Below are positions 11,318-59,490 of a stretch of 64,000 nucleotides of DNA, piece by piece. The DNA is from Fistulifera solaris (Eukaryota; Bacillariophyta; Bacillariophyceae; Naviculales; Stauroneidaceae), in assembly GCA_030295235.1 (NCBI GenBank), contig AP026138.1, positions 868,001 to 932,000 on the forward strand, written 5' to 3'. The notes under the pieces were generated by a model that was given only the letters and a program-made list of their open reading frames with translations, ran no database searches and was not told the origin of the DNA. How positions within the stretch are numbered: position 1 is the first letter of the stretch; the number at the start of each line of letters is the position of its first letter. A program made the translations under genes and the position numbers.

Positions 11318-11527
11318 TGATTCTGTTTCTTACTGTTTTCGAGTTCCATGATGGCCTTTTTGATTACTTCTTGTTGTGCGATATCATCTTGAGCTTGTTG
11401 CAATTTCCTATGCAAGTGTTTTGGCTTTTTGCTCTTTTTTTGTGGGCGGCTCTTGGATGGTCGGATATGTCACAGATGAGGGCTGTCGCTGATCTTGACG
11501 ACGTCGTTTGGCACCCAATCCACCCAT
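10189..11527 (-). CDS. S1 RNA-binding domain protein, frame broken once
   Basis: The first 30 codons, from the ATG at 11527 (MGGLGAKRRRQ), and the rest of the protein are in different frames. They join if one base of the T7 run at 11435-11441 is extra; then TKKSKKPKHLHRKLQQ reads through and the total is 445 residues. A poly-Gln run of about ten follows at 11286-11316, then a Ser/Glu-rich linker and RRQRGKRRRGRQ. A single S1 fold lies in the C-terminal half (LGQSYPGKVVYVKDFGIFVD, then VSRLSDEYV, then KRITISL). The last 100 residues are basic. S1 proteins bind RNA in translation, rRNA processing or decay. The basic ends suggest a nuclear or ribosome-associated role, but I cannot assign a named family. 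Confidence 0.75.
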
Positions 11528-12025
11528 TGTAGATTGATTGTCGTGATTTTAAAGTTAACTTTCAATTACTTGTCATACCTATCGGTTTATTACATGTCAC
11601 GCGTCGAGACGCAATTGTTTTTGTTCTTTGCTGTTGAGTGGTCATCTTTTCGCTCGTAACGACGGCAAGACGCACTTTGGATTATAGTAAAAACTGAAGA
11701 CAACGATCTCACGAAGACTCTTCCACTTGAAAGAAAAATACTGGGTAACTTGTAGTCTAGTGCCAATGCTGCTAAAGAGCGACAAATGAAGCCCAAGACA
11801 TTTTGCTGAGCGATCGAATTAAGAGCATTGTCGCCCGAAAGAAATAGACTCATGACTGAAGTGCAGTCGTGGCGAAATCCGGACAACACTTATTCGGTCC
11901 ATAGTAAAACGGAAGACAACGTTTTGCTACGGTGACAAAGGTAATAATAGTTTCAAACATCTGTAACAGGTATGATCTTGTTCAAAGTGGTTCATCATGT
12001 ACATTTTATAAGCAAGCTTGATTCT
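11528..12025. other. Intergenic, no gene seen
   Basis: This 498-bp stretch lies between two minus-strand genes. A 99-codon frame at 11590-11889 has no recognisable features. Confidence 0.5.
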
Positions 12026-13038
12026 TTAAGAGGTATCGGAGTTATAGTCGACTAGAGAAGAGTCGAGGAGTCTGGGTGTTGGCTGCCTTTCAAAAGCTTG
12101 TATTTGTCGACGTTCTCGTGGATGCGGCGCGTTTGAACCTTGTACCTCAAATTGCAGCTCTACTTTGATGGAGTGTGACTCGATCGAAGATATCACGTCA
12201 GGGCATGGTGCAGACGACGATGATGATTCTGTTCGATTCGTCTTTCGCGACACAAAGATAGAACCTTGTCGCAATTTCTTCCACTGATGCTTTTGCTTTT
12301 GTAATGCTGAAGTACCATACGTGGTTTCTTTTGCTCGTACTTGATCTACTCTGCTGCTCGATGTTAATAACCTCGTGCGGTGCGGATTCCATCCATTTTT
12401 CTGTGACAATTGAGTCTGTAAATTGTGGCGTTGACGTTTGGCGCGATGAATATCACGCAGTTGCGCGTTCCGATCAGCATCATTCAGAAATTGTTCATTT
12501 CTCTGTTTTTGTAAAGAGGTAGTTGCGCTTGCTCATGCTGCAGCAGCTGCCTGCGTTCAATCGCTTGTACTGGGTCTTCCGCCGATTCTTCATGAACAGC
12601 ACGATCTCGATGGGATTCATTGCGTTGCAACTTTTGTAGTCCTTGTACAAACACAAACTGTTGATGCAAAGGATCTGTTCGAATAATAAATTCTTGTGTG
12701 TGACACACCCGACAGTTCATGTGAAATTCCCAAGTATCATCCGTTATATAAGAAGTTGTAGACGACGAAGCAGTCTTGTTATCAATTGTAGCATCTGACG
12801 GACGTCGCTTCACAGCATTATACCGTGTTCCGCGACTGATATAAGCATCACAATTTTGACACAATGCATTGTACGGCAATTCAAAACGAACAGTCCTGTG
12901 TGTGCTTGTAGAAGAATTTCCTTGCTGCTGGTTGTGATACCATTGATTCTTCGTTAATTTCGGATTCTTTTGCGCCGCTTCGTAGTACTCGGGCGGCAAA
13001 TAATAGCCATCGGCTTGTGTGGCAGCCAATGAAGACAT
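12026..13038 (-). CDS. CWC16/YJU2 splicing factor (CCDC130-like), frame broken once
   Basis: The start is the ATG at 13038 (MSSLAATQADGYYLPPEYY). The N-terminal half carries the CWC16 signature: NQWYHN, VRFELPYNALCQNC, GTRYNAVK, then FHMNCRVCHTQEFIIRTDP. The paired CxxC sites bind zinc. CWC16 proteins (YJU2, CCDC94, CCDC130) act in the spliceosome around the first transesterification. The frame stops after LPLYKNREMNNF. The family pattern continues in another frame (QKQRNEQFLNDADRNAQLRD, then IHRAKRQR), which matches the helical tail of CCDC130. One base missing at about 12505-12516 joins them into 337 residues. A 68-bp GT-AG intron is formally possible but would remove family-like sequence. 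Confidence 0.83.
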
Positions 13039-14252: not shown

Positions 14253-14592
14253 ACTGGCAACGCGTCGAATTGCGACAAAATTCAACTACTAAGCTGATTC
14301 ATATAAATAGAGACAAAGTTATTAAACATTTGATTTCTGTATAAAAAAGGGCTAAAGTGGCAGAGGAGTCGTCCGAATTCTAGGAAAGGGGGAGGATCTT
14401 CGGCAACATTTTCGCCGGAAAAACGACGCATATACTGCTTAAGATGTTCCAAATATAGTTTCTTTCAGCTAGGTTGCTAATCTCCTAACACTAACAACTT
14501 GTAAGTATATTGAGCTATATCATCAATGCAAACATCGATTTACTCTACGCTTAAAAAATTAATGCATCAGTTCATTACGTTAATTAAATAGT
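14253..14592. other. 3' flank of LHC gene
   Basis: This 340-bp AT-rich sequence lies between the LHC stop and the first 222-bp repeat. Nothing is recognised in it. Confidence 0.5.
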
Positions 14593-15550
14593 TGTCTTGA
14601 TGACAGATTTCGTCCACATTTACTACGGCACAAAGTGTTGGTTTAGGGAAAACATGACTGCAATTTCAGTCATCAACTAAATCTTATAGTGACATCGACT
14701 GCTAGTCTATGATATGCATTTTTGTCTTGGTTTCTGCTGTAATAAACAAATCGCATTTCACTAGATACTAATGTCATTTGTATTCGAATGCATACCGTTT
14801 CTTTTTGTCAAATTGTCTTGATGATCGATTTCGTACACTTTTTACTATGGCACAAAGTGTAGGTTTAGGGAAAACATGACTGCAATTTCAGTCATCAACT
14901 AAATCTTAAAGTGACATGTGACATCGACTGCTATGATATGCATTTTGTCTTGGTTTCTGTCGTAATAAACAAAATTGCATATCACTAGAGATACTAATGT
15001 CATTTGTGTTTGAATGCGTAACGTTTCTTTTCGTCAAATTGTCTTGATGATCGATTCCGTCTACTTTTTACTATGGCACAAAGTGTTGGTTTAGGGAAAA
15101 CATGGCCTCAATTTCAGTCATCAACTATATCCTATAGTGACATCGACTGCTAGTCTATGATATGCATTTTTGTCTTGGTTTCTGCTGTAATAAACAAATC
15201 GCATTTCACTAGATACTAATGTCATTTGTATTTGAATGCATACCGTTTCTTTTTGTCAAATTGTCTTGATGATCGATTTCGTACACTTTTTACTATGGCA
15301 CAAAGTGTTGGTTCAGGGAAACACGACTGCAAATTCAGTCGCGAATTGAAACGGTATGTCAGCTCGTCAGCTCAAACTGAACTGCTAGCCCCACAAAATG
15401 CAAATTCTTTCATCTCGGTTGCTTATAAAATATATCTTGTCATTGAATGTCATTGATGCTACACTTGAAGTTTGGTGCGTTTGTCGATCCTCTACGTCAA
15501 TACGTCTTGATGAGCGTTTTCGTCGGAATGTACTATAGGTTTAAAGTGTG
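14593..15550. repeat. ~222-bp satellite-like tandem repeat, about 4.5 copies
   Basis: Copies begin with TTGTCTTGATGA at 14593, 14813, 15039 and 15261, giving periods of 220, 226 and 222 bp. A degenerate fifth start is at ~15503. Each unit contains a CACAAAGTGT palindrome, a short hairpin in which TGACTGCAATTTCAGTCA pairs around a central loop, and an ATATGCATT segment. The first three copies are near-identical apart from small indels. The fourth diverges after about 80 bp, and the region between it and the fifth start is unrelated. There is no coding signal. Confidence 0.88.
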
Positions 15551-15582
15551 ACATCAACTTATCCACGAGATTTTGTTACTAT

Positions 15583-16190
15583 TCCCAAAACACCGATTGC
15601 AGAATTTCTGGAAAATGCACAAAACCCTTGTCTGACGGAAAGCCCCAATCCCAAAATTTTTGAAACGTGCACAGAATCTCTGTGTCATCTTTTCACCTGA
15701 TCCAAAATATCTGGATGTCTCGCAGAACTTCTGTTCGACCCAATAAACCGGGTCCAGAATTTCTGGACCATCCGCAGAATTTCTGTGTGACCGAATACCG
15801 TTTCCAGAATTTCTGGAATATGGGAAAATGTTATCTCAAACCCAAACACCAATTCATTTCAAGAATTTGTGGTACGTGCACAAATGCTCTATGCGACGCA
15901 AAGCACCTAATCCAAAAAATTTGGATGTCACAGAACTTCTGCACGACCCAAAACACCGATTCCAGAATTTCTGGAAAATGCACAAAACCCTTTTCTGACG
16001 GAAAGCCCCAATCCCGAAATTTCTGAAACTCCACAGAATCTCTGTGTCACCTCCTTCACCTTTTTTTTGTTTTTTTTTACCTGATCCAGAATATCTGGAT
16101 GTCTCGCAGGACTTCTGTACGACCCAGTACACCGCACCGGGTCCGCAGATTCCAGAATTTCTGGTACTTGCACAAAAGCTCTATGCGACG
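15583..16190. repeat. Array of ~17 short palindromes (core CAGAATTTCTG)
   Basis: Short inverted repeats related to CCAGAATTTCTGG recur throughout, with spacings that alternate between about 21 and 30 bp. Examples are at ~15672, 15702, 15723, 15752, 15774 and 15803, and again at ~15931, 15960, 16033, 16085 and 16107. Outer bases vary but usually stay paired: CACAGAATCTCTGTG, TTCCAGAATTTCTGGAA, ATCCAGAATATCTGGAT. A ~160-bp block at 15583-15742 recurs at 15948-16127, with a poly-T insertion in the second copy. A stray relative lies near 16490. The array shares its core with the minisatellite at 1731-1965. Confidence 0.85.
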
Positions 16191-16681: not shown

Positions 16682-18161
16682 ATGATGCTCGTCACTGCCT
16701 CGACGACAGGTGCTTTTTTGGGTGCATTGATTAGTCGTTGGTGGTACTTGTCTTCAAGCAAAACAACAGAACGAGAAGCAGTTTCTTTCAATACAATTTT
16801 CTCTTCCAGCAGCTCGACCTCTCGTGTGAATCGAGCGACAAACGACACTACAATCCCCACTCACATTCGTAAAGAACAATTATCACGGCACGAGTTGTAT
16901 TTTTGGAGAAGAAGGCATGCAACAACTGCAGAAAACACGCATTTGTGTCGTCGGATTGGGAGGTGTGGGGAGTCATACCGTCATGGCTTTAGCTCGGGGA
17001 GGGATTGGCTATTTGCGCATCATCGATCATGATCAAGTCACTCTGAGTTCGTTGAATCGACACGCTGTCGCTACTTTGGCGGATGTGGGTATACCGAAAG
17101 CCGTTGCTCTGCAGAATTCGATGCGTCAAATATGTCCGGATCCTCAGTATTTGCAAGTGGATCCCCGTGTCGAAATGTATACGGCCGAGACGGCTGCTTC
17201 GTTACTCGACTATGATGAAGATGGACAACTCTGTTCTTGGGATTTAGTGATTGACGCGATTGATGATATTCCTACCAAGGCGCATTTGATTCAACATTGC
17301 TTGCAACGGAATATTCCGGTCATTTCGTGTATGGGAGCGGGTGGAAAGTCCGATTTTACGCGTTTGTGCGTGTCCGATTTACGGTCGGCGGCGAAAGATC
17401 CCTTGGCGACGAAATTGAAACAAACCTTGAAACAGTTGCTCGCGAAACAACACAACAGCATCACAACGAACAACGGCAGCATGGACAATTATCTAGATGA
17501 CATGAAAAAGCTAACAGTTTTGTACAATTCCGAGAAACCCGTTGTGAAACTCGCCGATTTTACGGCATCGCAGAAAGCACAAGGTGTTCAACACTTTGGG
17601 GCCGTGGAAGGGATGAGGATTCGAATTTTACCCGTTTTGGGGACGACGCCGTCGATTATGGGACAAGCGTTGGCTGCGTATGCCTTGACGGAATGCGGAG
17701 GGAAACCTTTGGCGCAACCAGTGACCGGAGAGCGCGTCGGGAAGAATGTTCGTAACAAACTGTTTCAAAAATTAGAACATCGGGAACAAGGAATTGCGCA
17801 ACACTATGATCCGCAGAGAGTGCATTCACGGGATGAACCGACTATACTCACGCTACCCGATGGAAAACAAGTGTGGATTGGACCCTTGCAAGTCGATCAA
17901 GATGATATTGACTACTTGATGCAAGTATGGAGGAATCGATGCGCAGTCACACAAGCCAGATTGGGAACGATTTTTCATTTGGTGCGATGGGATGTTTCTC
18001 AGCCGAGTGATTTGCACAACTTGGTGTTAATCAGCGCGGGTGCGTTGCAAAAGTACGACAATCCATCCGACTTTCTTCGTAGTTGGGAAACGATACCTAA
18101 TGATGTTCGTGAGACGATCGAGTTACGTCTTCAAGCTATTCGACAAGTTCAAGAGTTCTAA
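16682..18161 (+). CDS. TCD1: tRNA threonylcarbamoyladenosine dehydratase (Tcd1/TcdA), frame broken once
   Basis: This E1-like ThiF-family enzyme cyclises t6A37 of ANN-decoding tRNAs to ct6A in an ATP-dependent dehydration. The hallmark motifs are VVGLGGVGSH (nucleotide-binding loop), DHDQVTLSSLNRHAVA, the IDAIDDIPTK aspartates and CMGAGGKSDFTRL. The N-terminal part (IRKEQLSRHELYF, about residue 70) is in a different frame from GEEGMQQLQKTRICVV. The family sequence is restored if one base of the T5 run at 16900-16904 is extra, giving 492 residues. The extreme N-terminus (LVTASTTGAFLGALISRWWYL) is a hydrophobic anchor; yeast Tcd enzymes sit on the mitochondrial outer membrane. The C-terminal ~150 residues are less conserved. 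Confidence 0.88.
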
Positions 18162-19474: not shown

Positions 19475-22400
19475 ATGCAGGAAGTAGACGAAAACAATAT
19501 TACAAAGAATGATGATCACAATGATACAGTAACTACGACAGAAAAGGCAATGAAGGCTATCGAAACGGAAAGCAACAATTCAAATGATGATGATAATGAT
19601 GTTGTTATGAAAGATGCAGAAGAATCAGACGAAGAGAGAAATTTACCCGATAACAATAACAATGAAAATAGTACGAAAGAAGAAACAGCGGCGCATGTAG
19701 AAAATGGATCCACGGCGTCGCCAGAAAAGGATAACAATGACAATCACTTAACAAACACAGCAACAAAAGAAGAAGACGCGAATGATTCACACAATAACAA
19801 TGATATTACAAACGGAGAAACAGACACGGCGATGCAGCAGAATCAGCAACAACAACAACCCACAGAACCGTCGGCTTCCTCGTCCGCCGAGCACAAAAAG
19901 GAAACTACCGAGAAACCAGCAGCTCCGGCACCGCCTCCGCCTGTCATGAAAGGAACATTGTCGTGTGATATTGATCATCGTCGTCATCTCATTCGTGGAA
20001 TGTGGAATTACGAAAACTCAAATGTATTTCCGCCGCAACCATTTGAACTCGTACGGAATTTAGGACCGGATGAAGATAAGGAAGATTTGACCAAGGATGC
20101 CGAGTTTCACGGTTCCTTCCGTCTAGCTTACTTCCATACTACGTCGAAAGGGAAACAAAAGAGCGAATTAAAGTTATACAAGAGACCGGAGTCAATGTCA
20201 AATTCACAAAAGTGGAGGGAAGTGACGACGAATACAAAGTCGACGGAAAAGGGACGAATCAATTCGGGATTTTTCACATTTACGGGACAGCAACACGCAG
20301 TAAAATGGAAGGTGATAATTCATTGAGTGTCGTTTTGCGAAAGCGATACGAAGTATCCGATCAACCCGCTGCCGCTTCCGCGTCGACGACGCCGAACGTC
20401 GTCACTTCATCTCTGGCAATGATCTCGGCAGAAACAGACAATGGTCCGCTTCCACCTCCTGCGACTTCCTTTGCTACGGGAGTGGTATGTTTGCGAGGAA
20501 AGATACATCAAGAAACATCGGCAGAATTGGGAATCGAGGATGTCGTTTACCGTATTAGTGGCATGTGGTCGACCGGTCTCGATAAAATCCTGGAAGACCC
20601 GGACAATACCAAAGGCCTCTGCAATAGATTTGAATACGAGCACAAAAGCTCACAGCCGTCTTCTACGTTCCCAGTGTCGGGGCGTTACAGTGGATGGTTT
20701 GATCTGAGTGCGGAAGATGGAAGCAGAACCAGGATCAACGAGAGAGATGTCACTTTGAAGTTTCGCAAAAATAGCGAGGGGTACCACAATGTTGAAGGAA
20801 AAGGGAGCAACGTATTTGGAAAATACAGCATCACAGGAACTTTGACATCGGACCATATTCTGACGATTTTTCGTCATTTTCAACCCCGCAAAATCAAGTC
20901 TTCGAGCAGCAAAGTTGGTGTAGCCCCGGCTTCGGGGGCGACGAATGGTAGTACGGTACGTCGGCCTTCGCTTTCTATGGAGGATGCGAAGTTGAAATTA
21001 GACGACGTGCAACTACCAGAAGGTGAGACTCCAGATGCAATTTCACCACCCGCGAATGGAAGCTACTCGGCAGTGTCAAGGGGTGTTCTACGGGTGAATC
21101 CCGACGGATCTCACAGCTGCCAGGGCAAGTGGGCCGAGATGAGAGACCACTTTAACACAGGGCAGACAAGTCCCTTTAGCTTTCGCTTGGAAGCTCACTT
21201 TGCCACAGAACCGTCGGATGGATCGGAGCAACGGTCATTTCCTCAGGATTCTCCCATGTACAGAGGTACTTTTCAACTCAAGAAAGGCGCGTCTAGGTAT
21301 ACAACTGTGGTGGACCAGCAAATAGTCATGAAGTTTCAGTTGAACAATCAAGGCTCCTTCAACGTTCACGGGAAAGGGATAAACGCCATCGGAGAGTTCG
21401 CGTTGATTGGTACGCTGATCATGAGTGGCAAAACTGGGGGTCAGGTTGAACTCTACCGCATGTATCCACAAGAAAAACTCGCGGCTCCCCCACCACCTAT
21501 CAAGTCAGCAACGGAAAACGGCAGTTCCAGTTCTTTGCCAGGACCCGACACCGCCGCGCCTCCGAAGATACCCGCTCCGTCCCATCTGCCAATGCAACGA
21601 CGAGAATCATCTCGCTTAGTAAAATTGCCGTCGCGCCTGGAAGACGATGATCCGTCGGCTCAACTTAGTCGAATCATGGAGAAGTGTTCCCAAATTCTTC
21701 GTATCATTCGTGAAAAAGATGTTGAATTGGGCGCCTTCTTCTCCGAGCCTGTGGACCCTGTCGCCCTGGGCATCCCTACATACTTCCAGATTGTGAAGGA
21801 GCCCATGGATTTGAGAACGATTTACAGGAAGATGGAAGCGAATCAGGTCGACTCGCCTGAAGAATTTGCACGCCTCGTCAGACTTGTTTTCGAGAACGCC
21901 ATGACATTCAATATTGACCCTGCCCATTCGGTTCACCAAGCAGCCCGCAACCTTCTTGTGCTCTTTAATCAAAAGTTTCGAGATGCAGAACGTACGATCC
22001 AAAACATTAGAAGGTCCCATGGCGATGAATTGAAAAGAAAGATGATAAGAAACGCAGACGGGGCGAAGAGCTGATTAGTCTGAAGCAACGTCGGTTGGAA
22101 GAGGCAAAAGCCATGTCAGCTTCTAATACAAGTGCTATTGCAGCTTTAGTGGCGGCGGCTCCGATTGGTAATCCTTCGAATGTGACGCGTTCTGAGTTCT
22201 TGAAGCTCATTGATGTCATTCAGCAACTGCAGCAACAAGTTGTTCAGACGCACACAGCTCTTGCAGAACTTTGTCCAGGCGATGAAAGTGACATGAAGGT
22301 GTCCAGTTTGTCGGCGTACCCCAGCACAAACTCGATTCCACAGTCGATTACACCAGCCTTTGATACAAAGAAGAAGCAAGTGCGACGAAAATCGGAGAAC

Positions 22401-23873: not shown

Positions 23874-24601
23874 ATGGGAGATATTCCGGAAGGCGAGCAT
23901 CGCTTACAAAACGGTACGCAGATGAGAAATCTTAATCAATTTTTTGTTGCAAATCTTGCTGCTTTTCATTCACTTCTTTCGTGTTATATATGGTTTGTCT
24001 TAATTCTTACACACGTACGCACCCATACACTGCAGAATGGGTCTTGTGGGAGCACAAAGCCGCCGGTGGCGGTGCAAAATCCTCCAATCAGTGGAAAGAA
24101 AACATGAGTGAATTGTGTCACATTCGAACAGTTGAAGATTTTTGGAGAAATTTCAATCACATTCCCAAACCCTCCGAAGTTTTCTTTGACGGAGAATCCC
24201 GCAAAAAAGTCGGTCCGACAGCCAAGACCATTGAAGAGTATTCGCTATTTAAAAAGGGAATTGAGCCGGAATGGGGTGATCCGGCTAATATTGTAGGCGG
24301 AGAATGGTTCTGCCGACAATCATTCGAACCGGAATTGTTGGATCTGTACTGGATGAACTTGGCTATGAGTGTCATTGGAGAAACAATGGAGACCGATAGT
24401 CCCGAAGATACGGTGAATGGCGTTCGTGTTGTGGACAAATCGCGTGGACAGTATCCCATGTTCAAACTGGAGTTGTGGGTTCGCACTCGCCGTCCGGGCG
24501 ACAAAGATCGATTGCTCAAGCGATTGCAGGAAATCATCAAGGATGGTCAACACCCTCGATTCAAATTACAACCCAAGTTCGAGTGGAAGGATCACTCCTA
24601 A
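23874..24601 (+). CDS. EIF4E: Translation initiation factor eIF4E, 2 exons
   Basis: Exon 1 is 23874-23913 and exon 2 is 24036-24601. The 122-bp intron (GTACGC...CTGCAG) joins QN to EWVLWEHK, giving 201 residues. The fold is clear: VLWEH strand, NQW (first cap Trp), VEDFWRNFNHI, YSLFKKGIEPEW (second cap Trp), GGEWF, WMNLAMSVIGE and VVDKSRGQYPMFKLELWVR. eIF4E binds the mRNA 5' cap and recruits eIF4G. The Glu that normally follows the second cap Trp (WE in human) is Gly-Asp here, so guanine recognition may differ slightly. The 201-residue length fits the conserved core with a short N-terminus. Confidence 0.92.
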
Positions 24602-26603: not shown

Positions 26604-29587
26604 CTATCCCGTAGTTTCCTTTTGAATCAATTCAACCATGGATATTGGTTTCCAAGGCAGCGACGGGTTTTCACAAGCATACACCACGTTGGATTCCAGA
26701 TAAATGGGTGTCTTACCAAATACAAAAACCTGCTTGCCACTACTTGATTGGCTATTCATTGATTTGGGTTGAAACAAAATATCGTGTTCACGTGCCAACT
26801 CTTCAACGACTTCCCGAAAGGTCGGTATGGCCGTCTGAGTTTGTCGTCGCAATCGAATTTGTGCTTCCACAAAAGCGGTGTCGCCACCTTCCATGCGGTA
26901 GTAATCATCGTCCGCTCGTTTCTTGGCTTCCGCGACACGACGGGCCAACACGGTCTGATAGGAGACAGGATCCGACGGATAGAGCACGTCGTCCACGGGG
27001 ACATACGGTACTAACATTTGTAACACGGCATTGAAATACCGACAAATCATTTCGTCGTGGAAAAGTAGGATCTGCGATACTTTGCTCCCATTGACATAAA
27101 GCAATTGCGACTTGAAATTTGCATAGGTTGCTGCCACCTCAGTTGCGTGACCTTCGACGATTCTATCGTGTTGCAATATTACCCAATTCGACATTACTTC
27201 GCCTTCCAACAGGCTCAAAAACATTTCATCGGACAAAAGACCCACTTCATGCATCTCAAGCGTCTTGAATAAAAAAGCGAGTGTCTTTGTTGTTCTCTAG
27301 TACGGATTGCGACAAAGCTCGTGCCAGACGTGGTGTTACAGACGTAGCCATCATCGAGTGAATTGTTTCCTTTTTGAACAGAATCTTCCACGGCATAAGG
27401 CAGTGAACAATAGCATCCAAGAACTCCAAATCTTCAGATCGTTTCTGGTCCAAATACTGGACAGATTTTTGTAGTTTGCGTTTGCAATCCGATAAGAACG
27501 ACGACATAGATGCGATTCTCCCCAACTGCGCTATCCAGGGTAATATCCAAAGATCGAGACGATTGCGCAAATCACTTCCTTCCCATTGGGGCTTCCACTG
27601 AGCGACAGCGCGTGACAATCGATCGTGGATACATTGAAGCAGGATTTCATCTTGAAAACGTTGCCATACTGAATTCCTGCTTTCGTCCTCTTCATCAAAT
27701 CTGTTGGGTAGTACATTTTGATCATTATCGCTGCACTCGGTGCGTTTCTGGACTTTCTGATCGAGTGGCTGAATCATGCGTTCTAGTAATTCATAAAGGT
27801 TGACCCCTTCCCAGGACGACTGAATAGGGTCCCAGCGTGATGACTCAAATGCTTTCTTCGCAGTCGGCAGAAGATATTTAAGGGCAAGTGTTGACGCCAG
27901 CTTGTTGGCAGATGAAACATCTTTCACAGCTTTCGCCAGATGAAGAACCGACGCAATTATCTTCTCAGATACGTCGATGTCATCTTGAAGTGGCTTCCAT
28001 CCTTTCATTCTGTCCTCTACAAAGGTTCCAATGATGGAGGGGGAGCATGACATCCAAGAACTGCAGTTCTTTTCGATCTTGAGCGGAAAATATGTTCGAT
28101 ATACTTTGAATGTGCCGACTCAAACCCTTCAACGATGTATCTGCCTCGTCCGATGTAGGTGTTTTGTCAACACTAAGTAGGTGTTCCATCGATCTCAAAA
28201 TCTGATTGACTCTTTCCAATTTGTCAATTCGTTCCTCAAGGGCCTGGCTCTTTTCAATGTATTCCGTCACTTCAGACGCTGCGCTATCTAGTTTTCGTTC
28301 CGAAGATCGAACAAAGCTCGCTACAGAGTACACGCTGTTCTCTAGAGTCCCCAAGACCAGTGATACATTGTGTAATAATTCTTCTGCCAATGGAACTTCA
28401 ACAGACACGTATATGTCGTCCTTGTCTGCTAATGGTCCTCGCATGTCTATAACTTTCGTTTCCTGTTGCGGCGGCTGACTCATGATGTCTGTAAATGGAA
28501 TAACCGCCGGTCGCTGCCGCTTCTTGGACTTGATTTCTTTCGCACCACGCTTCCAACTTTTGTCGTGCATCAAATCTTGGGTATTCGGAAGAATGGATTT
28601 AAAGACGGAAATTGCTGTTGCCTCTTTATCAATGACGCTATGCTTTTCTTCACTTTCGTCTTTCCATTCAACACCCCGGACTTCGGCTTCAATCTGTCGA
28701 TTCGTCTTCAGTTGCGTCGCTTCCTTGAAATTCCCAAATCCTAACCCTAGATTCGCCGGTCTTACTTTAACTTCAATGGGTTTGGAAATGCCACTCACAG
28801 CATTCTCGGCACGTTTCTTAGAACCCAATCCTCCAGCTCCTTTGTATCCCATTTTGGCTAGTAGTTTCATACCGATCCCTTTAGTATGTTTCTCCCAAGT
28901 TCCGACCTTGACTGGGGGCTGCTGTGACGCGCGCGTTGTATTGAACGGTAAAGATGATGGTATCTGCTTCCCCGATTCTGTCAGTGGGTGTGACGCTTCG
29001 CTGTTTAATGACGCTGCGTTTTCGGTAGTGTCTTTAGGGTGTGTAGATAATGATGAAGTTGATGATTCTGTCGTAAAAGTGGGCCTCCGTCGCTTGCTGC
29101 CTTTTTGCAGTAAGGAAAGAAAATAATCATCTGCTTGTTGTTGCTTCTTTTGAAATTCCAGTTCTTGGGGCGTCGGCTCTTCTACTGATGTTTCAGCCGC
29201 AATGCGAACCGATGATTCTTTTTGCGCATTATTTTGGTCGTCATCTGCTTGTTGTTCGCTCTTTGTAGAGGCTTCAACTCCTTTCACAAACATGGGAGCT
29301 CCCAAATTGTTTTTCCTCCTGCTGCTGTTGTAAGGACCCTGCCCGTTCGATCGATTTCGTTTGCGAGTCGTACCTCCTTTTTCTTCACCTTCTGAATCAT
29401 CTAGAAACACGCCATAAGTTGCTTCTTCTTTCGAGGGACGCCGCCTGTTGTCATCGTTAAAATTATTATCGCCATCGTCGATGGTTGTGTATCGAAACCT
29501 GCCTCGTTTTCGAGTCAATCGTTCATCGTCGTCGTCGTCGTCGGAGGACGCGTTTATCACAGAATCTTCGTCGTCATCATACGACAT
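26604..29587 (-). CDS. TFIP11: Spliceosome disassembly factor TFIP11/Ntr1 (G-patch + GCFC), frame broken twice
   Basis: Three consecutive frames form one protein of 993 residues. This holds if one base is extra in each of the G5 run at 28039-28043 (MLPSIIGTFVEDRMKGW) and the A6 run at 27271-27276 (RFLFKTLEMHEVGLL). The N-terminus is acidic. The G-patch at about residue 225 reads WEKHTKGIGMKLLAKMGYKG then GGLGSKKRAEN, followed by SKPIEVKVRPANLGLGFG. A coiled coil leads into the GCFC-type helical domain (LWILPWIAQLGRI, LMPWKILF). The C-terminus has the TFIP11 ending (FREVVEELAREHDILFQP, KQVFVFGKTPIYLESNVVY). TFIP11/Ntr1 activates the DEAH helicase Prp43/DHX15 to release the intron lariat. Confidence 0.9.
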
Positions 29588-30144: not shown

Positions 30145-31257
30145 TCATGTCGAACTTGCACCGATAGTTGCAAAACGAGCCGAAACAAGCGATGCATCCT
30201 CGCTGCAGCTCTCATCATAAGATGTAACGGAAAAATCATTGTAGTACAGAAAGTGATCTTCGAATGAATGATCCGAACAGCTTTCAATATCATACAAGGA
30301 ATCCATATCGTCATCATCGACGGAGCACTCGTCATCCGACGTTACGTCCCAAGAGACCACCGGTGCATCACTCGACTGATTTTCACCGGAGGGAGACGAA
30401 CGGTTCATCATATCTCGAACATCTCCTAAAACAGTGTCTGTAGGCAAGCGTAATGCCGTTCTTTTCTTGACCGGAGAGAAAAATGCAAGAGCGCTATCTG
30501 TAGAGGAGTAGGTTGTCATGATTTGTTCTGATGATTTCCCAGTTGCTTCGGCTGGGGAGGTTCGATCTACCTTCAAAAGATTTAATGCCAGTGACTGTTG
30601 GAGACCCGTTTGCAGAGAGAATGACCGCCTATTTTTTCGCGGAGATGCCCGGTTGGGCGATACGAATTGAATTGTTTCATTTTGGCATGCTTCTTGAGAG
30701 ACCGCTGTCAGCATACCTGTAATTTCCTGACAAAGCGTTTGGGATATTGCTCGGCTCTTTTTTTGGGGCGAAAGAAGCCGAATAGGTTGTACTGGTGGAC
30801 TCATGGAAGAAGGCGTTGTTGACATGGAAGATCCAACCCCTGGAGACTGCATTTGTCTTATTGTCGTCATCTGATCCAGCGCTGATTCCCATCGTGATAT
30901 AGCTTTTGAGCTTTCAAATGACTGACAAAGTGATTTCGGCGACAAGCTCCAACTGTTCCTTCAAGTGACGGTTGATTTCGTTTGTCCTGATTAGCTTTTC
31001 GTGTCCGCTCGAATTCATCCACACTCACTTCCCTACAAGGTAAGTATTCGTGCCTGACAACATAAAAGGGAATCAGATCCGTGAGTGATACAGGCTTTGT
31101 GAAAAGTTATATTTACTTTCGGCACTTACATAGACGAAACTCGATCGTCTTCTGTGTTCAAGCGAAAGAACTGAACACGAACTTTGCCGAATTGTATCTT
31201 GCTCGATCTTTCTTGGAGAAAAGAGGATTCAGAGTCGTTACGGTGAAGCGATTTCAT
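30145..31257 (-). CDS. Ser-rich protein of unknown function, 2 exons, frame broken once
   Basis: The proposed start is the ATG at 31257 (MKSLHRNDSESS). An 88-bp intron at 31095-31182 (GTTCGT...CACAAAG) joins KIQFGK to PVSLTDLIPFYVVRHEYLP. A missing G next to 30958-30959 joins DKRNQPSLEG to NSWSLSPKSLCQSFESSKAI. The sum is then 341 residues in frame. The motif VSVDEFERTRK...SLEGNSWSLSP followed by a WESAL helix looks like a conserved core. The C-terminal half is Ser-rich with SPQKKSRA and SPVKKRTA motifs and ends in an acidic region. The SPxKK style recurs in the gene at 57801-59490. There is no signal peptide or known domain. The splice donor is not canonical, so the 5' structure is tentative. 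Confidence 0.6.
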
Positions 31258-31902: not shown

Positions 31903-31911
31903 ACAATGAAC

Positions 31912-38744: not shown

Positions 38745-39780
38745 TCAAGATGACGTGACGGGTTTGCGAGACTTGTACCCCTTCGAGGACGACGATGACG
38801 CTATGGGCAGTTGTGAACTCGACATTGAATGCCCAGATTCCTTGCTTAAACCTCTCGACTCTCTCGAAGAAGGTGCTTCTTTTGTAGATTTTCGATTGCT
38901 GCTACTCGTTTGCGGTGAACTCTTCGCCGCCTGCTCTCTCGACGATGATTTGCGATCACCTCGAGGTGATTTTCGCGCGTTACTTGGCGTTCGTGGTGAC
39001 TTTGCAGACGGCGGTGGTTTTGGAATGGAGAGGTGTTCCTTCTCTGACTTTTTTCGTATTTGAGTTCGCGCTACAGGTCGAGTGTTGAGATTCTTTGAGA
39101 TAATTCTGTTCTCTGGAAGGCCGTACTTTCTTTCGTCCGCTTTTACTTTCGCGTTTCCTGTGCTCTCTATTTTCTTTATGAATTTTCATTGCAAGCATAA
39201 AATCACCAAGTGCCTTTTTGTGAGCAAACATCCGCAGTTCATGACTCCATTTCTTAGAGACTTTCGCTAGTTTTCTTTCGCGCTCTTTTCGTTCGGATGA
39301 AGATTGAGCATAACTCATTTGCCGTTGCGCTTCCAGCACTTCATCCACACAGGCTTTTTGTAATTTCAAAATGATAGGCGAGAAGTAGGATTCAAAGCCT
39401 CGTGTCGGACTCCGCGTAACGATTTTGCTCATGTGAAGGTTTTCGGGGTCTTCTAATTCGCTGACAATCAAGCCTTCGAGTGCTTCTGTATATTCAGTTT
39501 CGCCGCGATTGCGAATCTCCTCTATAAAAACGGCCGTCTCTTCCTGCATATTTTCCATTTCTTCGTCACCCCAGAAAAGATCATCGTATTTTGCATTATA
39601 AAGCGCCCCCGGATAACTGTATTCCGTGCACAAGGGAGTGTCATTATCATCCATGTCAAAGCGAACGACTCGCCGTCTGTGTCTCCTTTTTCGTTTTGTT
39701 GTTTTAGCCGTTCGATCCTTTTCTTTCGCTGTGACGACTTCTTCGGGAGGTATTGTTTCATCCGGCATGCTGGAAACCAT
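38745..39780 (-). CDS. Basic Ser-rich protein of unknown function, frame broken once
   Basis: The start is the ATG at 39780 (MVSSMPDETIPPEEVV). Residues ~35-75 read RRVVRFDMDDNDTPLCTEYS, then LYNAKYDDLFWGDEEMENM. This V-R-F...Y...D-LFW pattern recurs in many stramenopile proteins of unknown function. A helical charged middle follows (SEDPE-like, then YAQSSSERKERERKLAKVSKKW). The frame then stops after VTTNAK, but another frame continues with a coherent Ser/Pro/Lys-rich tail (KSEKEHLSIPKPPPSAKSPR to GYKSRKPVTSS). One extra base in the T6 run at 39049-39054 joins them into 344 residues. No signal peptide or known domain is visible. Confidence 0.7.
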
Positions 39781-40436
39781 GGTGTGTTGTTTGAATGTCA
39801 ATTGTGCTGTCAAGGAAAGGAGCCGCGGTGCTGCTGTGCGCTGTCAACTTCCTTTCCATCGCGACGAGATGCGCGAGCGCGAGGTGCGAGCTTCGATGGC
39901 ACCGTGATTGGATTTTTAGTTCGTTGTAATTCGGTGACCGGAGACGCCATAATCCATAATTATGAAATCGCTCCCTTCGAACGATGTCTGTTCTCTACTT
40001 AATGACTGGGTGCGACGGATTTACTCTAGATCTTAGATTTACAAAGCTTGAATGAAACTACATAAGCCACATAAGCCCAACAGAAGGCTGTAGTCCACAA
40101 TGTCCGCCGTATTCGTAAAACGTGAAATCAGCAAGTCAACGAAAACGAAAATGTAAAATGTACTTATTGATGCAGTGTTGGCACAATTCAGAATAACAGT
40201 ACTGTAGTACGACAGTAGGTCCATTCATGACTGGCTCTAGTTTATTCAGTCATGGAAACGTTGGAATACACATTAGCCTACAGTGTACGTCCATCGTCCG
40301 CAAGAACAATCGCAAACACCAATCAAACGTTATTGCAAATAATAAGAACAGGCAGAACAAATGAATCGACGATGATAGAAACGAGATAAAGCAAAACGTT
40401 GTTACTTGATATCTTTGTTGAAAGTTACTAAGAAAT
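39781..40436. other. Divergent promoter region (unknown gene / RRP36)
   Basis: This 656-bp region lies between divergent genes. Nothing beyond short frames and AT-rich sequence is recognised. Confidence 0.5.
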
Positions 40437-42538: not shown

Positions 42539-44244
42539 TTAAGCATATTGGACGCGCATGATGTTCGTGGTACCCTTGGTGCGCAAAGCACCCGTCACAA
42601 CGACGACCGCATCACCGGCATCGAGTTTGCCTGCCGCCTTTAACTCATCAATCATGATTTGAATTTCACCGTCGAGGTCATCAAAGCTGACTACCTTAGC
42701 ATCGACACCACGGAGAATACCACAGCACTGGCGGGCCACTTGAGCCTTGTCAGTCAACACGTGAATCGGACGTCCGGGACGGAATTTAGCCACCTGAGTT
42801 GCTGTAGTTCCGCTTTCACTGCAAACAATGATAGCTTTCGCGCCACAATCGATGGTAGTTTTCACGGCAGAGCTGGCAATGGATTCAGAAGTGCTCAACT
42901 TTCCGTACTGAGCCAGGGTACTGTTACGGACAGCCTGATAAAGCATGTCGGTGTTTTGAGCACCTTCGGCTTCGGTCGTGGTTTCCGCCATGATCTGGAC
43001 AGCTGCTTGCGGGTGTTCACCGTTGGCTGTTTCTCCCGACAACATGACAGCGTCAGTACCATCCAAAACGGCGTTGGCTACATCGGAGCACTCCGCACGA
43101 GTGGGACGGGGATTGACAATCATCGACTCCAACATTTGCGTGGCGGTAACGACAGGTTTTCCGGCGATGTTCGCTTTGCGGATCATCATCTTTTGGGCTA
43201 TTTATTGGAGTAAAAAGGTAAATACACAGTCATGTGAGCATCAGCTGGTTTCAGAACAATGATCTACAATTAACGCAATCAAACACTCACCCAAAAAGAC
43301 CTTTTCAGGAGGAATCTCCATACCCAAATCACCACGAGCAACCATGATAGCATCGGTAGCTTCTAAGATAGCATCGTAGTTCTCCATACCCTCCTGGTTT
43401 TCAATTTTGCTGATAATCTTGATGCCGCTGTTCTCTTCCAAAACCTGACGAATTTTGTGAACGTCACTTGCTTTGCGCACAAACGATGCGGCAATGAAGT
43501 CAACACCGTGTTTGAGACCAAAGTTCTGCAAATCATCAATATCCTTTTCCGTCAAAGTGGGCAAATCGACGACAACTCCCGGAAGGTTCATGTTCTTGCG
43601 TTCTCCAATGGACGCATCATTTTCGATACGACAGGTGACTTCTCCGGCGGCCGGGTTGGTTGCAGTGACGGTCAAGACCAAACTGCCATCAGCAACGAGG
43701 ATTTGCTGACCGACGGTGACACTCGTAGCCAATGAAGCATAACTGCATGCCATCTTGGTAGCATCACCCTTGAAGGAGTAATCCGATGTGAGGACGATGG
43801 AGTTACCCTTCTTCAGAGAAATTTTGCTACCCTCGGCAAAGAAACCACTACGGATTTCAGGGCCTTTTGTGTCAAGCATGACAGCTATAGAGTCGAGAAG
43901 AGAGAAGGATTGGTTAAGCGTCTCTCAGCGCACACGCATTCACAGCCAATCACTTCTTTCAACTTACCAACATGCTTCCCTTTCTTTGCCGCTGCCGCTC
44001 TCAAACGTTCTAACGTCGCCGCGTGCGTTTCATGATCTCCATGACTAAAGTTGAAACGTGCAACACTTAATCCTGTATCAATCAAGGTCTCGAGCATCTC
44101 TGGCGACCAACAAGCAGGTCCGAGAGTGCACACAATCTTCGTTTGACGAGTACTCACATCCGTCGGAGCAATAATTTTAGCCAAGTTGATGTTGCCGCCG
44201 CGCAATTCGGGGCCAGATGATTCAATCTTGGGTGTCATAGTCAT
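42539..44244 (-). CDS. PYK: Pyruvate kinase, 3 exons
   Basis: The exons are 43968-44244, 43291-43884 and 42539-43197, with introns of 83 and 93 bp (GTAAGT...CTATAG and GTGAGT...AAATAG). Splicing gives 509 residues. Motifs: [50 protein letters not shown] with the catalytic Lys, [12 protein letters not shown] (metal site), [28 protein letters not shown] and [15 protein letters not shown] at the C-terminus. The enzyme transfers phosphate from PEP to ADP in glycolysis. There is no signal or transit peptide, so the isozyme is probably cytosolic. The start is the first of two close ATGs ([11 protein letters not shown]). Confidence 0.95.
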
Positions 44245-45541
44245 AGAGCTGATGATCTTAAAGGAAAACGATACGTTTATTGCAATCAAAGAAGAGATTC
44301 GTTCAGTCGAAACGTAACGAGAAATAATTTGTTTGTGACGATGGCGATGATGTGTGTGCGCGCGTATGCGAGAAAAAAGACGAAAAAGTAGTGGTGCACC
44401 CGACAGATGACAGACGCCTACGTCGCTCCTTTTTGTACGTAGTGAAATAGTATGACGTATTGTGTAGCACACTTTTTTCATGCGACCGCTTCTTCGTCCG
44501 TACCTGGTACGTCATTCTCGTCTATACTAGTACAACATAGCCAGGTTCGTGATTCGTAACTCATGACACCAGCTAACACTCATTTTTCTAAAATGAAAAA
44601 GATGCACATATTTGCAAGTGAATTTACATTTCTTTACGAAAATTTGGTAAGCCCCATACGAAGTAATATGCCCTATCATCAAAAGTAATGACGATCGTAA
44701 TGGAATTCTGGATAAACAAAAAGAAATTACCAGATAAGGTAATGTAAGCCACGGCTAGCTAGACGATAATGTACGCTTTCCGCTTCTTGTCCTGCTCATC
44801 ACTAAACACTAATCTTCAAGTTTCACTTTTCCATTCTTTTCCCTCCCATCTTCATCTTGTCTCCAAAGCTTGCTATTAACTCTAGTGCCTACCAAACTGA
44901 GCTTGTCATTTTACGCACCTTCTAAACCTCCAAACTGCTTTCGGAATTAATTCAGGGGCTCTCTAGACGCCCAAGGTTCTAGCTGACTATCCTTTCACTC
45001 AAAGTTTTCATGCTTCAATTTCAAACAAAAGAGACTCCACACTCACAACTCCTCGCTCCTCATTCCTCCAAACACCGATGTCTAGAGAGCTAATCTTTGC
45101 AATGAAGTACTGTTGTCGAAACCGACGGAGAAAGGAAAATGGAAAAGCATGGGAAATGGGAAAGACGAAAGACTAGAAACCGTAAACCGTACCAGTAACA
45201 CGTGCATAATCGATAAAACGTAGTACGCCGAATGTCGAGAGAGTGTCGTCTTTACAGTTGTCCTGAGAGTCACGTGTCACGTGCAACGTTTAGAACCCAT
45301 CTGAAATCTGAAAACGGCTTTATGTATTGGGGAATAGCGAAATGTCGCGAGACGTGGTAGGAACATAATCGATTTTATTCACTTTTTCTTCTCTTCAATA
45401 TCAATAGTCAGGCCTACTGTTGCTTACAGTTTGCTGCTTCTTTGGCGCATAAATTATGACCCGTATACAACTCGTTTCTGTAGAAGCGTCGAAGTAGGAA
45501 CAAACCAACGAAATTCAACATGCAACCCAGTGACCAGGAAG
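44245..45541. other. Divergent intergenic region (pyruvate kinase / bZIP)
   Basis: This ~1.3-kb non-coding sequence contains AT-rich stretches, a CT-rich strand near 44790-44860 and CACGTGTCACGTG at ~45272, an E-box/ABRE-like direct repeat. The bZIP factor itself could recognise such ACGT cores, but that is only inference. Confidence 0.45.
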
Positions 45542-48557: not shown

Positions 48558-49396
48558 ATGTACGCAAGACCAAGTAGCGACCATGAGGAAGTCGGCCCTT
48601 CCAAGAAGAGGAAAGTCAGCCATCACAAAGAATCGCCGACTTTGCGATACAGCGACGTCCATGGCTCCAACAGAGACGATGGCGATGAATCGGCAAGTGA
48701 ATCTTTGCAGCCGCAATGCAAGACAGGAGTGAAACGGGTGCACATAAACGACCGAGAAAGGCGAGCAGTGCATCTCGTCGCATCGAAATATCTAATCCAG
48801 AGCTTGCCCTACGCCACAAGCTCACCAGCGAAGAGGGGCAGTTAGAAGAACACCCCGATTACACTCCAGATCAAGCGAGAGAAGCGGCTAAACGTGAATA
48901 TAATCGTCGAAATGCAGCCCGGGCTCGCATCCGTCTAAAGTGCACGTTGACTGAAATGCATGAGAAGTGTGCTTCGATGAACGACGAAATTCAAAGCCTG
49001 AAGGATGAGAATGCTGCTTTAAAAGCTGAATTGAATGAAATGAAACAACAGGCTCGTAGACAAAGTCTCAGTGCCGATAGACTTCGCCTAAGTGATATCA
49101 CCTTGCCGACAGACCGAGGATTGTATCTTCCGCAACTGCGAGGGGCCTTGGAAACTGACCGTCTCTTGCAAGGTAGTGTATTAGCTCCACAGTGGCAGTC
49201 CAACGAAGCGAGATTACAGCAGTTGATTACAATGGGTGGTGTGACACCCCTCGTTCCGTCCGTGCAGCCTGAATTGGCGCTTGGGCAACCTTTAATGAAT
49301 TCGCTCATCCTGGCCAGGGCCCGGGCCGCTTTGCATCCGAATAGCTCATTAACACTCTCCGAGCTCGGAAACTCATCACTCTTTTTACCGAAATAG
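48558..49396 (+). CDS. bZIP-type transcription factor, paralogue 2, frame broken once
   Basis: The start is the ATG at 48558 (MYARPSSDHEEVGPSKKRK). The first 53 codons and the rest are in different frames. One missing base around 48715-48716 joins SASESLQPQ to MQDRSETGAHKRPRKASS, giving 279 residues collinear with paralogue 1. The lead segment is IEISNPELALRHKLTSEEGQ. The basic region is KREYNRRNAARARIRLKCTL, then a zipper-like coil (MHEKCASMNDEIQSLKDENA). The C-terminus ends LILARARAALHPNS...LFLPK, matching paralogue 1. The two genes are a same-strand tandem duplication. The linker between zipper and C-terminus is shorter than in paralogue 1. Confidence 0.82.
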
Positions 49397-54550: not shown

Positions 54551-56804
54551 ATGCATTTTCGATCGCCGCGCCGCCCTCTCCGCCACGCCACGCTGATGAT
54601 ACCGCAAACGGCAAACAAAAATTTTGCCGGAGTAATTCATTCGTCTCCAAAATTGAAATGGAATATATCATTGATAGAATATCGTAAGAGACAATATCGA
54701 CAAAGCAACGATCAACTCAAGCTCACCAATCTCGTCAGCGAAGCAATCTTGTGCCCGAAGGAATTAAAAGAAGGCGAAAGCGCTCTAGAAAGACCCACGA
54801 ACACAGCATTTCCTTGTAAGAAATCGTTCTCGGAAAGCGCAATGATTACACCTCATATCACAGGCTCGCAAGTTATTTTACCAAGGGATCCTGCCAATAC
54901 TATATCGCCTTTGAGCGTCGTTAGCTCTGAATCAGTTGTGTCGACTGCTTCGAATAGATGGAAAAGCATAAGCAGATCTAACTTTCGGAAGCTTCCGATC
55001 GCTGAAAGCTCTACGGCTTGTGTCAATGCGTCGCATTTTGAGGATTCGGCAAAAACGGAGAATGTAACAAAGGAACAATTGTTACGTCGTCCTTTAATCC
55101 GTCGAGAATCGTTGTCGGTGAAAGATTTGCTCGCTCAGGTTGTGGAGGAACCAGGTTTTACTGCGCGGTTGTCGAAATCGATGACAGACCTCAAAACGTC
55201 CGTTAAATCGACTCACGAGAGCTCCAAAGAAAATAGATCGGTTCCGCGTCGTGACTATATGCCAGTAGAGGTATTAGCCCTGCAGACGATGGATTTGGAA
55301 GACGAAGAGAGGGCCGTTCTATGCAGTCGGTTATCACGGTCAATGACTGATTTGCAATTATCCCCTAAAGCAAAGGCGTTCGATAATATAACGATGGCTA
55401 GCAAGGTCCGGCGAAAACTTGCGCTCACAAAGTCGGACTCTTCTCAGTACATGATGCCCGCTTTACCAGTTCGAGAAGATAGTTTCAATTTATCGGACAA
55501 CCAGAATGCTCAATTTTCAACCCCAATACCAGCGAACCGAGATGCCTACATCGATAAACTGATCAGGAAGAGTACTTTATCAGTCAAGTCGTCTTGGTAC
55601 AAGAAACAATTATCGCAGGCAGCGCAGCCTCCCGAAGTGCACGCAAGTTTTGCTACCAGTGAGCCCCCCTGTGAAACAGAACATTCTTATAAACTCACTG
55701 GACGCAAATGTCCGAAAAAGTGACAACCATCATTCGAGTACAGCGCTCACATCACCAATGGCAAAGGGACTGGTAAGCAGTCAATTTTCAAGGTCAATGA
55801 ACGACCTATCTACGTCGCAGCAGTCCTTTCATGTCCGACTATCTCGCTCTCATTCGTCGGAAAGGATGCCTGTGATGCCACTGCGTCGTGGCAGCGTTGG
55901 GATTGGTAGTAGAAGTAATCAAGATTTGCCGCAAGGTGAAAGGTCAAGAGTTTCCGCTGTGCTAGTTGATTCTCCACAGCAATCAACACCAACAGTCAGT
56001 TCGAAAACACATTCACAATTGAGCAAACCATGGGGCTGGTCCGAAACGTCAACTTTGAAGCGCAGTTCGTTATCAAGTTTATCAACGGACTTATCCGGAC
56101 CACCGTGTGAACATCCGGATCTTCGTCGGCCTTATTCGTCGGAACAAATGCCGATGAAGCCAATGCGTCGTGATAGCTTAGCGGCCCCCGATAACGAGAC
56201 CTCACTGTCAAAGCCAGCTCCCGCCGAAGTGCACGCACCATACAGCCTATCAAAGGACATTGAAGAACTGATATTGAAAAGCGCTTCATCGGTAAAATCT
56301 CTTTGGCATTTGAAGCAAGCCGTTGATGCGCAAGATCTTTTTCCCAAAGAAACGAGAAATGTACTCAACGACACGTCTCCTATCCTATCGAATATGACTA
56401 GAAAAAATTCTACAAGTGAGCCCTCTGTGTCACCGGGGTTAGCTCGTGTTTCGAACTCTATGTCGGAACTTCGTTCAGTGCTTTCATCCTCCAATAATGG
56501 AGTTGTGTTCTCGGAGCTATCTCGCTGTCATACATCTGCGAGCATGCCTACAAAGCCGATGCGTCGCGGAAGTATCAATGCTGAAATTGCGTTTGCTGGA
56601 CATGGCTCCAATCTGCATACACGCCGCACATTACCAGCAATGAATTCCCAACCCACGCAATCACAGCATCCTGGTGTATCCGTCGACGAAGCAGAAGAAA
56701 GAGAACCTGGACTAGCTATTGCTAGACCCGTTGCAAAGTCCAACATCTTTTTTGACACAACTCGGTCCAGAAAATCTGTGCTTGGGGAGTCACCTAACAG
56801 TTAG
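54551..56804 (+). CDS. Ser-rich repeat protein A of a three-gene cluster, frame broken once
   Basis: The start is ATG at 54551 (or the ATG 15 codons later, MIPQTANKNF). An extra base in the C6 run at 55664-55669 joins EPPVKQNILINSLDAN, giving 750 residues. There is no known domain. Repeats are clear: S-x-S-M-T/N/S-D/E-L occurs four times (SKSMTDL, SRSMTDL, SRSMNDL, SNSMSEL). A motif S-S-x-x-M-P-x-K-P-x-R-R-x-S occurs about four times (MPALPVREDS, MPVMPLRRGS, MPMKPMRRDS, MPTKPMRRGS). R-K-S-x-L-S-V-K-S/D-x-W/L recurs (RKSTLSVKSSW, LKSASSVKSLW). The RRxS motifs look like basophilic-kinase or 14-3-3 sites. There is no signal peptide, so it is likely intracellular. Gene C shares the MPxKPxRR motif. 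Confidence 0.72.
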
Positions 56805-57800
56805 GGTCCCTGGAAGTTTAAGGACAAGAAGTTGTCTCGACAAGCACTTAATCGACCGTGATAATGCTGAGTTGAGGTTTCTCCGTGTTTCAGTTTGGTG
56901 TCAAAGATTTTGGTTAGACGAGATATGAGACAACCCTAGGTAACGAGGCTAGCGAAATAGTTCTATTGGAACGGGTTTGCACCTAGTATTGTTAAGCTTT
57001 TTTTTCGCACACCAGCTCTTTTGTTCCCTAGGTTTTGATCCAGGTCGCAAAAAATCAAAAACGGCAAGTGAAAAAGACTCTTTTGACTTTTCATGAACAT
57101 GTTACATTATTTTGGTTTTTAGCTGCTTTCTAGAGCTGCTTTCTAGCTTGCGCTCCTTAGCAATGAGGGTCGCTACCTAGGTGCGCCTTAGCTTCTTCGG
57201 CCTGGTTGCTTAGGTTAGAGAGTCTATAGAGTATAGAGTTGCTACTGGGTACTGGGTAAGGTTATAAAGGATGAAGAAGATGACAGATGACAGATGACTG
57301 TACTTGTACTTGACTATTGGCTGTTGGTAGAAAGTCATGGTCATTGTTCGTAAACGTTAACATTTGACATTAACCATTAACATGTCATTGTTTCGTCTCT
57401 ACAGTATATAGTGAATTATGAATTATGAATTAATAGTTACCTATTATGTACGTTGTATTTCGAATTTCGAAGTTCGAAGGATACTACGTACTTTTGTACT
57501 TTTGCTTTTTCTTTCGTCTAACGCTCTACAAATTGGTGCAGAGTGCAGAGGAGTCTTTCTGTCTTTCTACATTACAGTAGGAGGTCCCAAAGAGCAGAAG
57601 CCTTTAAGGCCAGACGCAAAAAGCGCCCCGCGATAGTCTTCGCACTTCGCACGACAATAAGATTTTTCACCCCTTGAATTCTCAAGAAACGACGACGAAA
57701 GGAAGCGAATAAACGCTTTGACAAAGTCAGCTGGATCGCATAGCCTTCTGCAACCTGAAAAGGTGCATTGAAACTGACTTCATTGTTATAAATCGTCGCA
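56805..57800. other. Intergenic within the Ser-rich cluster, AT-rich
   Basis: This 996-bp region has no recognised gene. It contains short local repeats such as AGCTGCTTTCTAG (twice near 57121) and TATAGAGTATAGAG near 57225. Confidence 0.5.
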
Positions 57801-59490
57801 ATGAGACGAGAAGATTGCGAAGATTTGCCTATCCAAGAGGAATTTGGAACTCCGATGTCATCGCGACTCGTTTCACCCGCTCAAGAATCTGTTTATGCGG
57901 AAATATTAGTAAACCATTCGCATGCGCTCCTCGTGTCGCCGTTGGGTGAAGATCTTTCTCCAATGAAGCGTTTGCCTGTTCCTATGATGTCGGCGCTAGA
58001 AGCATGTCGAATTCGCCGTTCAAAACTTCCCATAATGAGAGACACAAACAGAAGAGAGGCAGCCTTCGCAGCGTCGTCAAGGAAACTCGAAGGACTTGCT
58101 CGAGCAAAGTCAATGGCTCTTATGAGTAGCACAACGAAAGCTTCTTCCAGAGAATCACAGTCTTATACTAAAAGCAGTCTATCGGTCACGAAACACTCTT
58201 CGAATCCTGATCTTCGACTGCAAAATGTGCAACTCGACCGCATCGCACCATGATGAGTAACGCACGGTGGAACAATGCCCGATCTGAGAGACTCAACAAA
58301 TCATGTGACTTGAAAAATGTGTTTATAACCGACTGTTTGGTCGACATGGGCAGGATGCGCTGTGATAATCCTGGGGCAAACTCGTCATTAGACCTGCAAG
58401 GCGTATTTGGCAAATCCTCGGACAAGGTAGATACTGGAAGGAAGAATTCGGGTGGAGATTCACGGCGTAGTCTCGGTGACTCTGCAAGTAAATTAGACGA
58501 GCGGTCAGCATTGGCTCCTCGACGTCCGGTACGATTGCTGAGCCCCTTAAAAAAGAACAGGCATTATTCAACACCGGAACTTGGATGTATGCTTGGCGAT
58601 TTCGAAAAGAAACAAAGGAAAGCCTCAATGAATGATGGATGGGATGACTCGGAGAATACGGAAGGATCCCTAGAATTAAGCAATGTATTTCCAGAATATC
58701 AGCGAGAGCAAAGCCACGCTCCTGTAAGACACGGTAAAAGTCGAAGTATTACTCGGACAAATTCAAGCATCGACTTGCTCAATGTTTTCGGAGGATCGCT
58801 ACATGGATTGGATACGTCTCTATCGAAAGGATCAGCATCCGCTTCAATGAGTAACTTTCGAGCAACGCCCCTAAAATCACCCAGAAGTCTCAAAGCAGCA
58901 AGAAAATCAACAAGTACAGCTCAAGCCCAAATCTAGGCCACAATCGTTACGTATCTCCCACAAGTGTGATGGACGTGAACAATTCCTCGGATGCTCATTC
59001 CACAGGCAACGTAATTTGGAGTCATCAAATGAAGTCGGGAAATGCGTGTTCAGAACGACCGAAAAACGTATTCATTCAGGGCATGTCGACAAATGCAAAT
59101 TATACTCGAAGGACTCAATTAACATCAGTGAATACGAAAATGATTCCCGGTCGAACATCCCATGAACTTCTGACGTCGATGCAATCGTTACAACCACAAC
59201 GCCCAGCGGCAGGGTTGCAAAAATACAGCTCCACCCCAGAACTTGGTGGAAGAGATCGAAATTCACGATCAAGAACATTTGAAAACGGCCTTTCAAGCCA
59301 TAGGATGGAAAATGCCTATTGGAAGCCGAATAAATCGAACGGTCATGGAAATGTTCTTATAAAAGCAATCACTCCTCCCACCTCGGCGATACCATTAAAT
59401 CGCGGCGTCACACGAACTACCTCATCGCTTGATTTGAGCTTAGTCTTCGGTTCATCTCTTGAGCATATCGAAGGACGCTGCAATAGTTAA
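57801..59490 (+). CDS. Ser-rich repeat protein B, frame broken twice
   Basis: Three consecutive frames (57801-58253, 58250-58936, 58966-59490) read as one 563-residue protein if one base is missing near 58245-58252 and one in the A4 run at 58903-58906. The second join gives KYSSSPNLGHNRYVSP, which matches other repeats in the same protein. Repeat 1 is S-S/G-L/I-D/E-L-x-x-V-F-(G), as SSLDLQGVFG, GSLELSNVFP, SSIDLLNVFG and SSLDLSLVFG. Repeat 2 is Y-S-T-P-E-L-G (HYSTPELGCML, KYSSTPELGGR, KYSSSPNLGHN, HSSNPDLRLQN). A SPLKKNR motif precedes repeat 2. There is no known domain, signal or membrane span. It is probably a phosphorylated intracellular protein. Confidence 0.7.

Follow-up and report, generated by a model that had tools for sequence, protein, structure and literature searches.

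The window analysed here is a stretch of 64,000 nucleotides from contig AP026138.1 of a Fistulifera solaris assembly (G000:C23:868001-932000, where G000 is the assembly and C23 the contig), and all positions are given within it unless stated otherwise. The assembly comprises 51.7 Mb in 61 contigs. A 25-base primer published for F. solaris has a single exact match in it, and the partner primer and a guide target fall within that locus with no mismatch. From these matches, the size and the contig number we infer that it is a nanopore assembly of the allodiploid F. solaris. The species is listed as 62 sequences and 52 Mb in a section of the 2025 re-annotation, which cites two F. solaris assemblies, one of them Fsolaris_ONT_v03reference (PMC12159174), and a passage of PMC13276009 describes its genome as allodiploid. 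A second contig, C24, carries a collinear homoeologous stretch which aligns with the window in pieces, at about 78-91% identity, and this served as an internal control. A Pfam scan of 40 frames from the window named, among other domains, S1, Saf4/Yju2, chlorophyll-binding protein, ThiF, EF-hand, bromodomain and BET domains, together with eIF4E, alpha/beta hydrolase, TIP_N, G-patch and GCFC (TFIP11), HSF, ArfGap, RRP36, pyruvate kinase and CBM6 domains, while bZIP scored just below the Pfam cut-off. Besides the copies on C23 and C24, a search with the BET domain found two weaker ones, on C3 and C4.

No Rfam matches at gathering score and no tRNA genes were found within the window. Repeats are present, including a tandem repeat at 14592-15340 (222-base unit, 3.4 copies) and a near-palindrome, CCAGAAWWTCTGG, which with one mismatch allowed gave 24 matches over both strands at 15 places in the window (lying at 1741-1958, 15599-16164 and 56767), compared to 0.33 expected. 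The 15-base form of this near-palindrome matches the genome 1,280 times in forward and 1,255 times in reverse orientation, against 0 for a reversed control pattern, and among the matches listed (the first 100, all of them on C1) a spacing of about 52 bases is frequent.

A sequence-only reading of the window had proposed that at least ten of its genes jump frame by one base, at 13 listed sites, and had attributed these jumps to sequencing error. Each of the 13 sites was compared with C24 by alignment, by the distance between unique flanking anchors and by inspection of the letters. In addition, a frameshift-aware alignment which scores codon pairs was run on 30 gene stretches set by hand, and detects only those breaks that are private to one of the two copies. 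Under the strict rule used with it, a break required at least 15 codons on each side and a mean score of 3.9, this cut-off having been chosen after the looser count given below was known.

A one-base length difference between C23 and C24 was found at 11 of the 13 sites, in ten cases by anchors and in one (48704-48706) by alignment alone, and seven of these lie at the place proposed. On the minus strand, a T7 run at 11435-11441 in the S1-domain gene (10192-11548) is one base longer than in C24, and an A3 run at 12513-12515 in the Saf4/Yju2 (CWC16) gene, within the proposed 12505-12516, is one base shorter (alignment, anchors and strict rule in both cases). The TFIP11 gene (TIP_N, G-patch and GCFC domains), also on the minus strand, has an A6 run at 27271-27276 and a G5 run at 28039-28043, each one base longer than in C24, and the same holds for a T6 run at 39049-39054 in an unnamed minus-strand gene, g22 (about 38748-39894; alignment, anchors and strict rule for all three runs). 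On the plus strand, a T5 run at 16900-16904 in the ThiF-family (Tcd1-like) gene is one base longer than in C24 and an A4 run at 22033-22036 in the bromodomain/BET gene is one base shorter (alignment, anchors and strict rule for both).

At the remaining four of the 11 sites a one-base difference exists, but it is displaced by about 10-56 bases from where it had been placed. The jump assigned to 20170-20172 lies in an A4 run at 20157-20160 of the bromodomain/BET gene (plus strand), which is one base shorter than in C24 by alignment, anchors, inspection of the letters and the strict rule. The one assigned to 48715-48716 lies at about 48704-48706, in a T3 run one base shorter than in C24 (plus strand; alignment only, as unique anchors are absent), within a second bZIP-like gene identified by its similarity to the bZIP gene at 46 kb. 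Two others fall in poorly conserved genes and are placed with low confidence: the nearest one-base difference to about 58248 is near 58221 (58221-58225, plus strand), and at 30958-30959 the lengths are equal (98 and 98 bases), the nearest one-base difference being 56 bases off, near 30902 (30901-30903, minus strand). The sites at 48704, 58221 and 30902 fail the strict break rule. Of the last two of the 13 sites, the A4 run at 58903-58906 (plus strand) has the same length in both copies in the alignment, anchors being absent and a 14-base length difference lying just upstream, and for the C6 run at 55664-55669 (plus strand) C24 is without an aligned counterpart, from about 55521 to 55697. At the place corresponding to window position 30765, C24 reads 16 consecutive C and C23 reads CCCC and then seven A.

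Under the strict rule 24 one-base breaks were called, of which 8 occur only in C23 and 16 only in C24. All eight of the C23 breaks match listed sites and they are spread over six genes (nine when counted loosely), so that several genes are indeed hit, although fewer than the ten or more first proposed. They comprise 5 insertions and 3 deletions, and the C24 breaks 5 insertions and 11 deletions. Four of the 16 C24 breaks fall in g27, a stretch rich in stops and breaks in both copies which may be partly non-coding, and C24 breaks also hit the eIF4E gene (plus strand), which reads A5 in C23 at 24251-24255 and A4 in C24 by codon alignment, the alpha/beta hydrolase gene and other genes. In the BET gene and g22 both copies carry breaks, but not at the same places: in BET, the T run of C24 that corresponds to 21961-21966 (plus strand; codon alignment) is longer by one base, where C23 is unbroken, and in g22 a separate break of C24 lies opposite position 39213. 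A strict break is carried by 17 gene pairs, and in 15 of these the other copy is free of one. In C24, TFIP11, Saf4/Yju2 (CWC16), ThiF (Tcd1) and S1 each read as one open frame, of 995, 390, 519 and 444 amino acids respectively, and thus intact forms of these genes are present in the same assembly without any correction. A looser count, which admits changes of one or two bases and some weakly coding flanks, put 19 breaks in C23 alone and 26 in C24 alone. A looser two-strand caller gave 13 and 22 (35 breaks in 8386 supported codon slots), some of these 35 calls being on the strand opposite the assigned gene and the breaks at 11434 and 16901 being lost by its third-position rule.

The breaks are concentrated at runs of a single base. 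In one copy or the other, 19 of the 24 strict breaks touched a run of at least 5 bases, compared to 232 of 6527 control codons (3.6%; binomial P 1e-23), and when the extra base of each insertion was omitted 16 of the 24 still touched runs of at least 5. No sense-strand nonsense codons were found in the 30 gene stretches under the strict flank rule. The looser rule gave five stop-against-sense pairs (window positions 7622, 13489, 22647, 34704 and 51779), which lie at gene ends or in weakly coding stretches, and the two-strand caller gave 13 nonsense rows in the window (one place occurring twice), all opposite the hand-assigned gene. The third-position share of mismatches, counted only over codons with conserved neighbours, was 0.58 before and 0.66 after a gene's first break, and this persisting bias fits either error or very recent change.

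These observations bear on whether the breaks are real fractionation, in which one homoeolog of each pair is lost after the hybrid origin and its breaks are tolerated as the sister copy works. The allodiploid genome (as described in the passage of PMC13276009 cited above) and the breakage of a single copy in most of the affected pairs are both as fractionation would have it. Against this, BET and g22 are broken on both sides, and decay should yield stops as well as frameshifts, yet the 24 strict breaks are accompanied by no strict nonsense codon. Nor does the third-position bias fall after the breaks (very recent mutations would give the same), and the breaks cluster at short runs, so that we consider fractionation very improbable. 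It had also been argued beforehand that the decay of a dozen essential genes is unlikely; this conclusion holds, but the argument for it is weaker than was claimed because in an allodiploid genome one copy could decay, and it is the sister-copy evidence that decides for error over decay.

Other parts of the assembly, and bacterial sequences, were used as controls. In a second homoeologous pair, C39/C38, the two-strand caller found 9 breaks, 4 in one copy and 5 in the other, over 4128 supported codon slots, and 9 nonsense rows, which were counted without gene assignment. The same looser two-strand caller, rather than the strict rule, found 0 breaks in each of four comparisons of a stretch of E. 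coli K-12 with a relative (about 82% identity, 6110-6376 codon slots each; L030, L036, L038 and L040, four of 80 relatives), with 19-21 nonsense rows in each, on the strand opposite the annotated genes; bacteria are without introns, and false calls in non-coding DNA are outside the scope of this control. Within the assembly, a 44-kb contig, C47, holds a 20-kb near-copy of part of C28 and is probably a redundant, poorly polished contig. The comparison of these near-identical 20 kb (G000:C47:10001-30000 and G000:C28:266875-286874) gave 64 indel events and 1 substitution, and 42 of the 47 one-base events lay in runs of at least 3. C47 was the shorter in 61 of the 64 indel events and so is most likely the poor copy. 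As these errors are mainly in a small redundant contig, the comparison illustrates which kind of error the assembly contains, but not how frequent it is on C23. Three pieces of C13 and C21, at about 98% identity, differed by 14 substitutions and 27 indel events.

Two further readings take the one-base changes as true. The breaks might be real in the cultured strain, which would slip in short runs on both subgenomes and carry many freshly broken genes covered by their homoeologs, and this we regard as very unlikely. Alternatively, the lineage might be a mutator, for example with defective mismatch repair, accumulating true one-base slips in runs on both homoeologs, and one-base run changes on both copies without nonsense codons are what such a lineage would be expected to show. 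Repair defects act mostly on long runs, however, and 18 of the 24 strict breaks touch runs of only 5 to 7; a mutator alone would also leave unexplained why C47 is the shorter copy in nearly all of its indel events. We judge a mutator lineage extremely unlikely.

Programmed ribosomal frameshifting in many genes would account for the coding bias that continues on both sides of the breaks, but as 11 of the 13 listed sites show a one-base difference between the copies, both cannot change frame by the same step there, and the breaks go in both directions with no common signal seen beyond a run. The caller is blind to breaks common to both copies, and frameshifts shared by both elsewhere are outside its reach; for the listed sites we give this explanation practically no weight. 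Unrecognised introns merit equally little. Some frame changes in the window that are common to both copies do look like introns, for example in the pyruvate kinase gene, but at each of the eight strict C23 sites the alignment of the two copies continues across the break with no more than one base of difference, too little for an intron confined to one of them. The pyruvate kinase gene itself (42542-44511) reads in three frames with the same arrangement in both homoeologs, a pattern which suggests introns, not errors. On the grounds given for each, we rejected real decay and programmed frameshifting, and also introns as a cause of the strict breaks.

The frame jumps are thus very probably one-base consensus indels in a long-read assembly of allodiploid F. 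solaris, and not biology. The sequence-only reading had held sequencing error to be likelier than decay, and this is supported by the breaks in the sister copy, the run bias, the absent strict nonsense codons, the third-position bias and the C47/C28 comparison. In such an assembly, homopolymer runs, mostly of 4 to 7 bases, would have been given one base too many or too few, these run-length errors would have arisen independently on the two homoeologous chromosomes, and an intact gene would then read as two or three overlapping frames. We infer that the organism's own DNA has an intact run at each of the breaks.

As biology the frame jumps are ordinary, and they are useful as a warning for annotation. 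Gene models predicted from this assembly may be fragmented or truncated, and comparisons of gene loss between homoeologs in F. solaris could mistake consensus errors for decay. The F. solaris gene count is given as 26,808 (26,502 after filtering) in the re-annotation (a passage of PMC12159174) and as 20,429 in the table of a study that preceded it, and split genes are one possible contributor to the higher count. The re-annotation calls the source of duplicated F. solaris gene groups unclear in one passage (PMC12159174), and the allodiploid genome is a ready explanation for these.

Among known systems, programmed ribosomal frameshifting resembles the present case in that coding bias continues across the frame change, and differs in being common to both copies, which is not so at the listed sites, where both directions occur and there is no shared site beyond the run. 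Fractionation of homoeologs in allopolyploids is alike in that only one copy is broken in 15 of the 17 pairs with a strict break, and differs from what is found here, where there are no strict nonsense codons, the third-position bias is kept and two pairs are broken on both sides. Frameshifts from long-read errors are described as making genes resemble pseudogenes in a part of PMC12007338, and a part of PMC8147415 describes how nanopore assemblies of two further diatoms contain indel errors. The strict C23 breaks, with more insertions than deletions (5 to 3), lack the deletion bias of C47 and differ in this from nanopore homopolymer indel errors, with which they share one-base run changes, occurrence on both homoeologs and genes split into frames.
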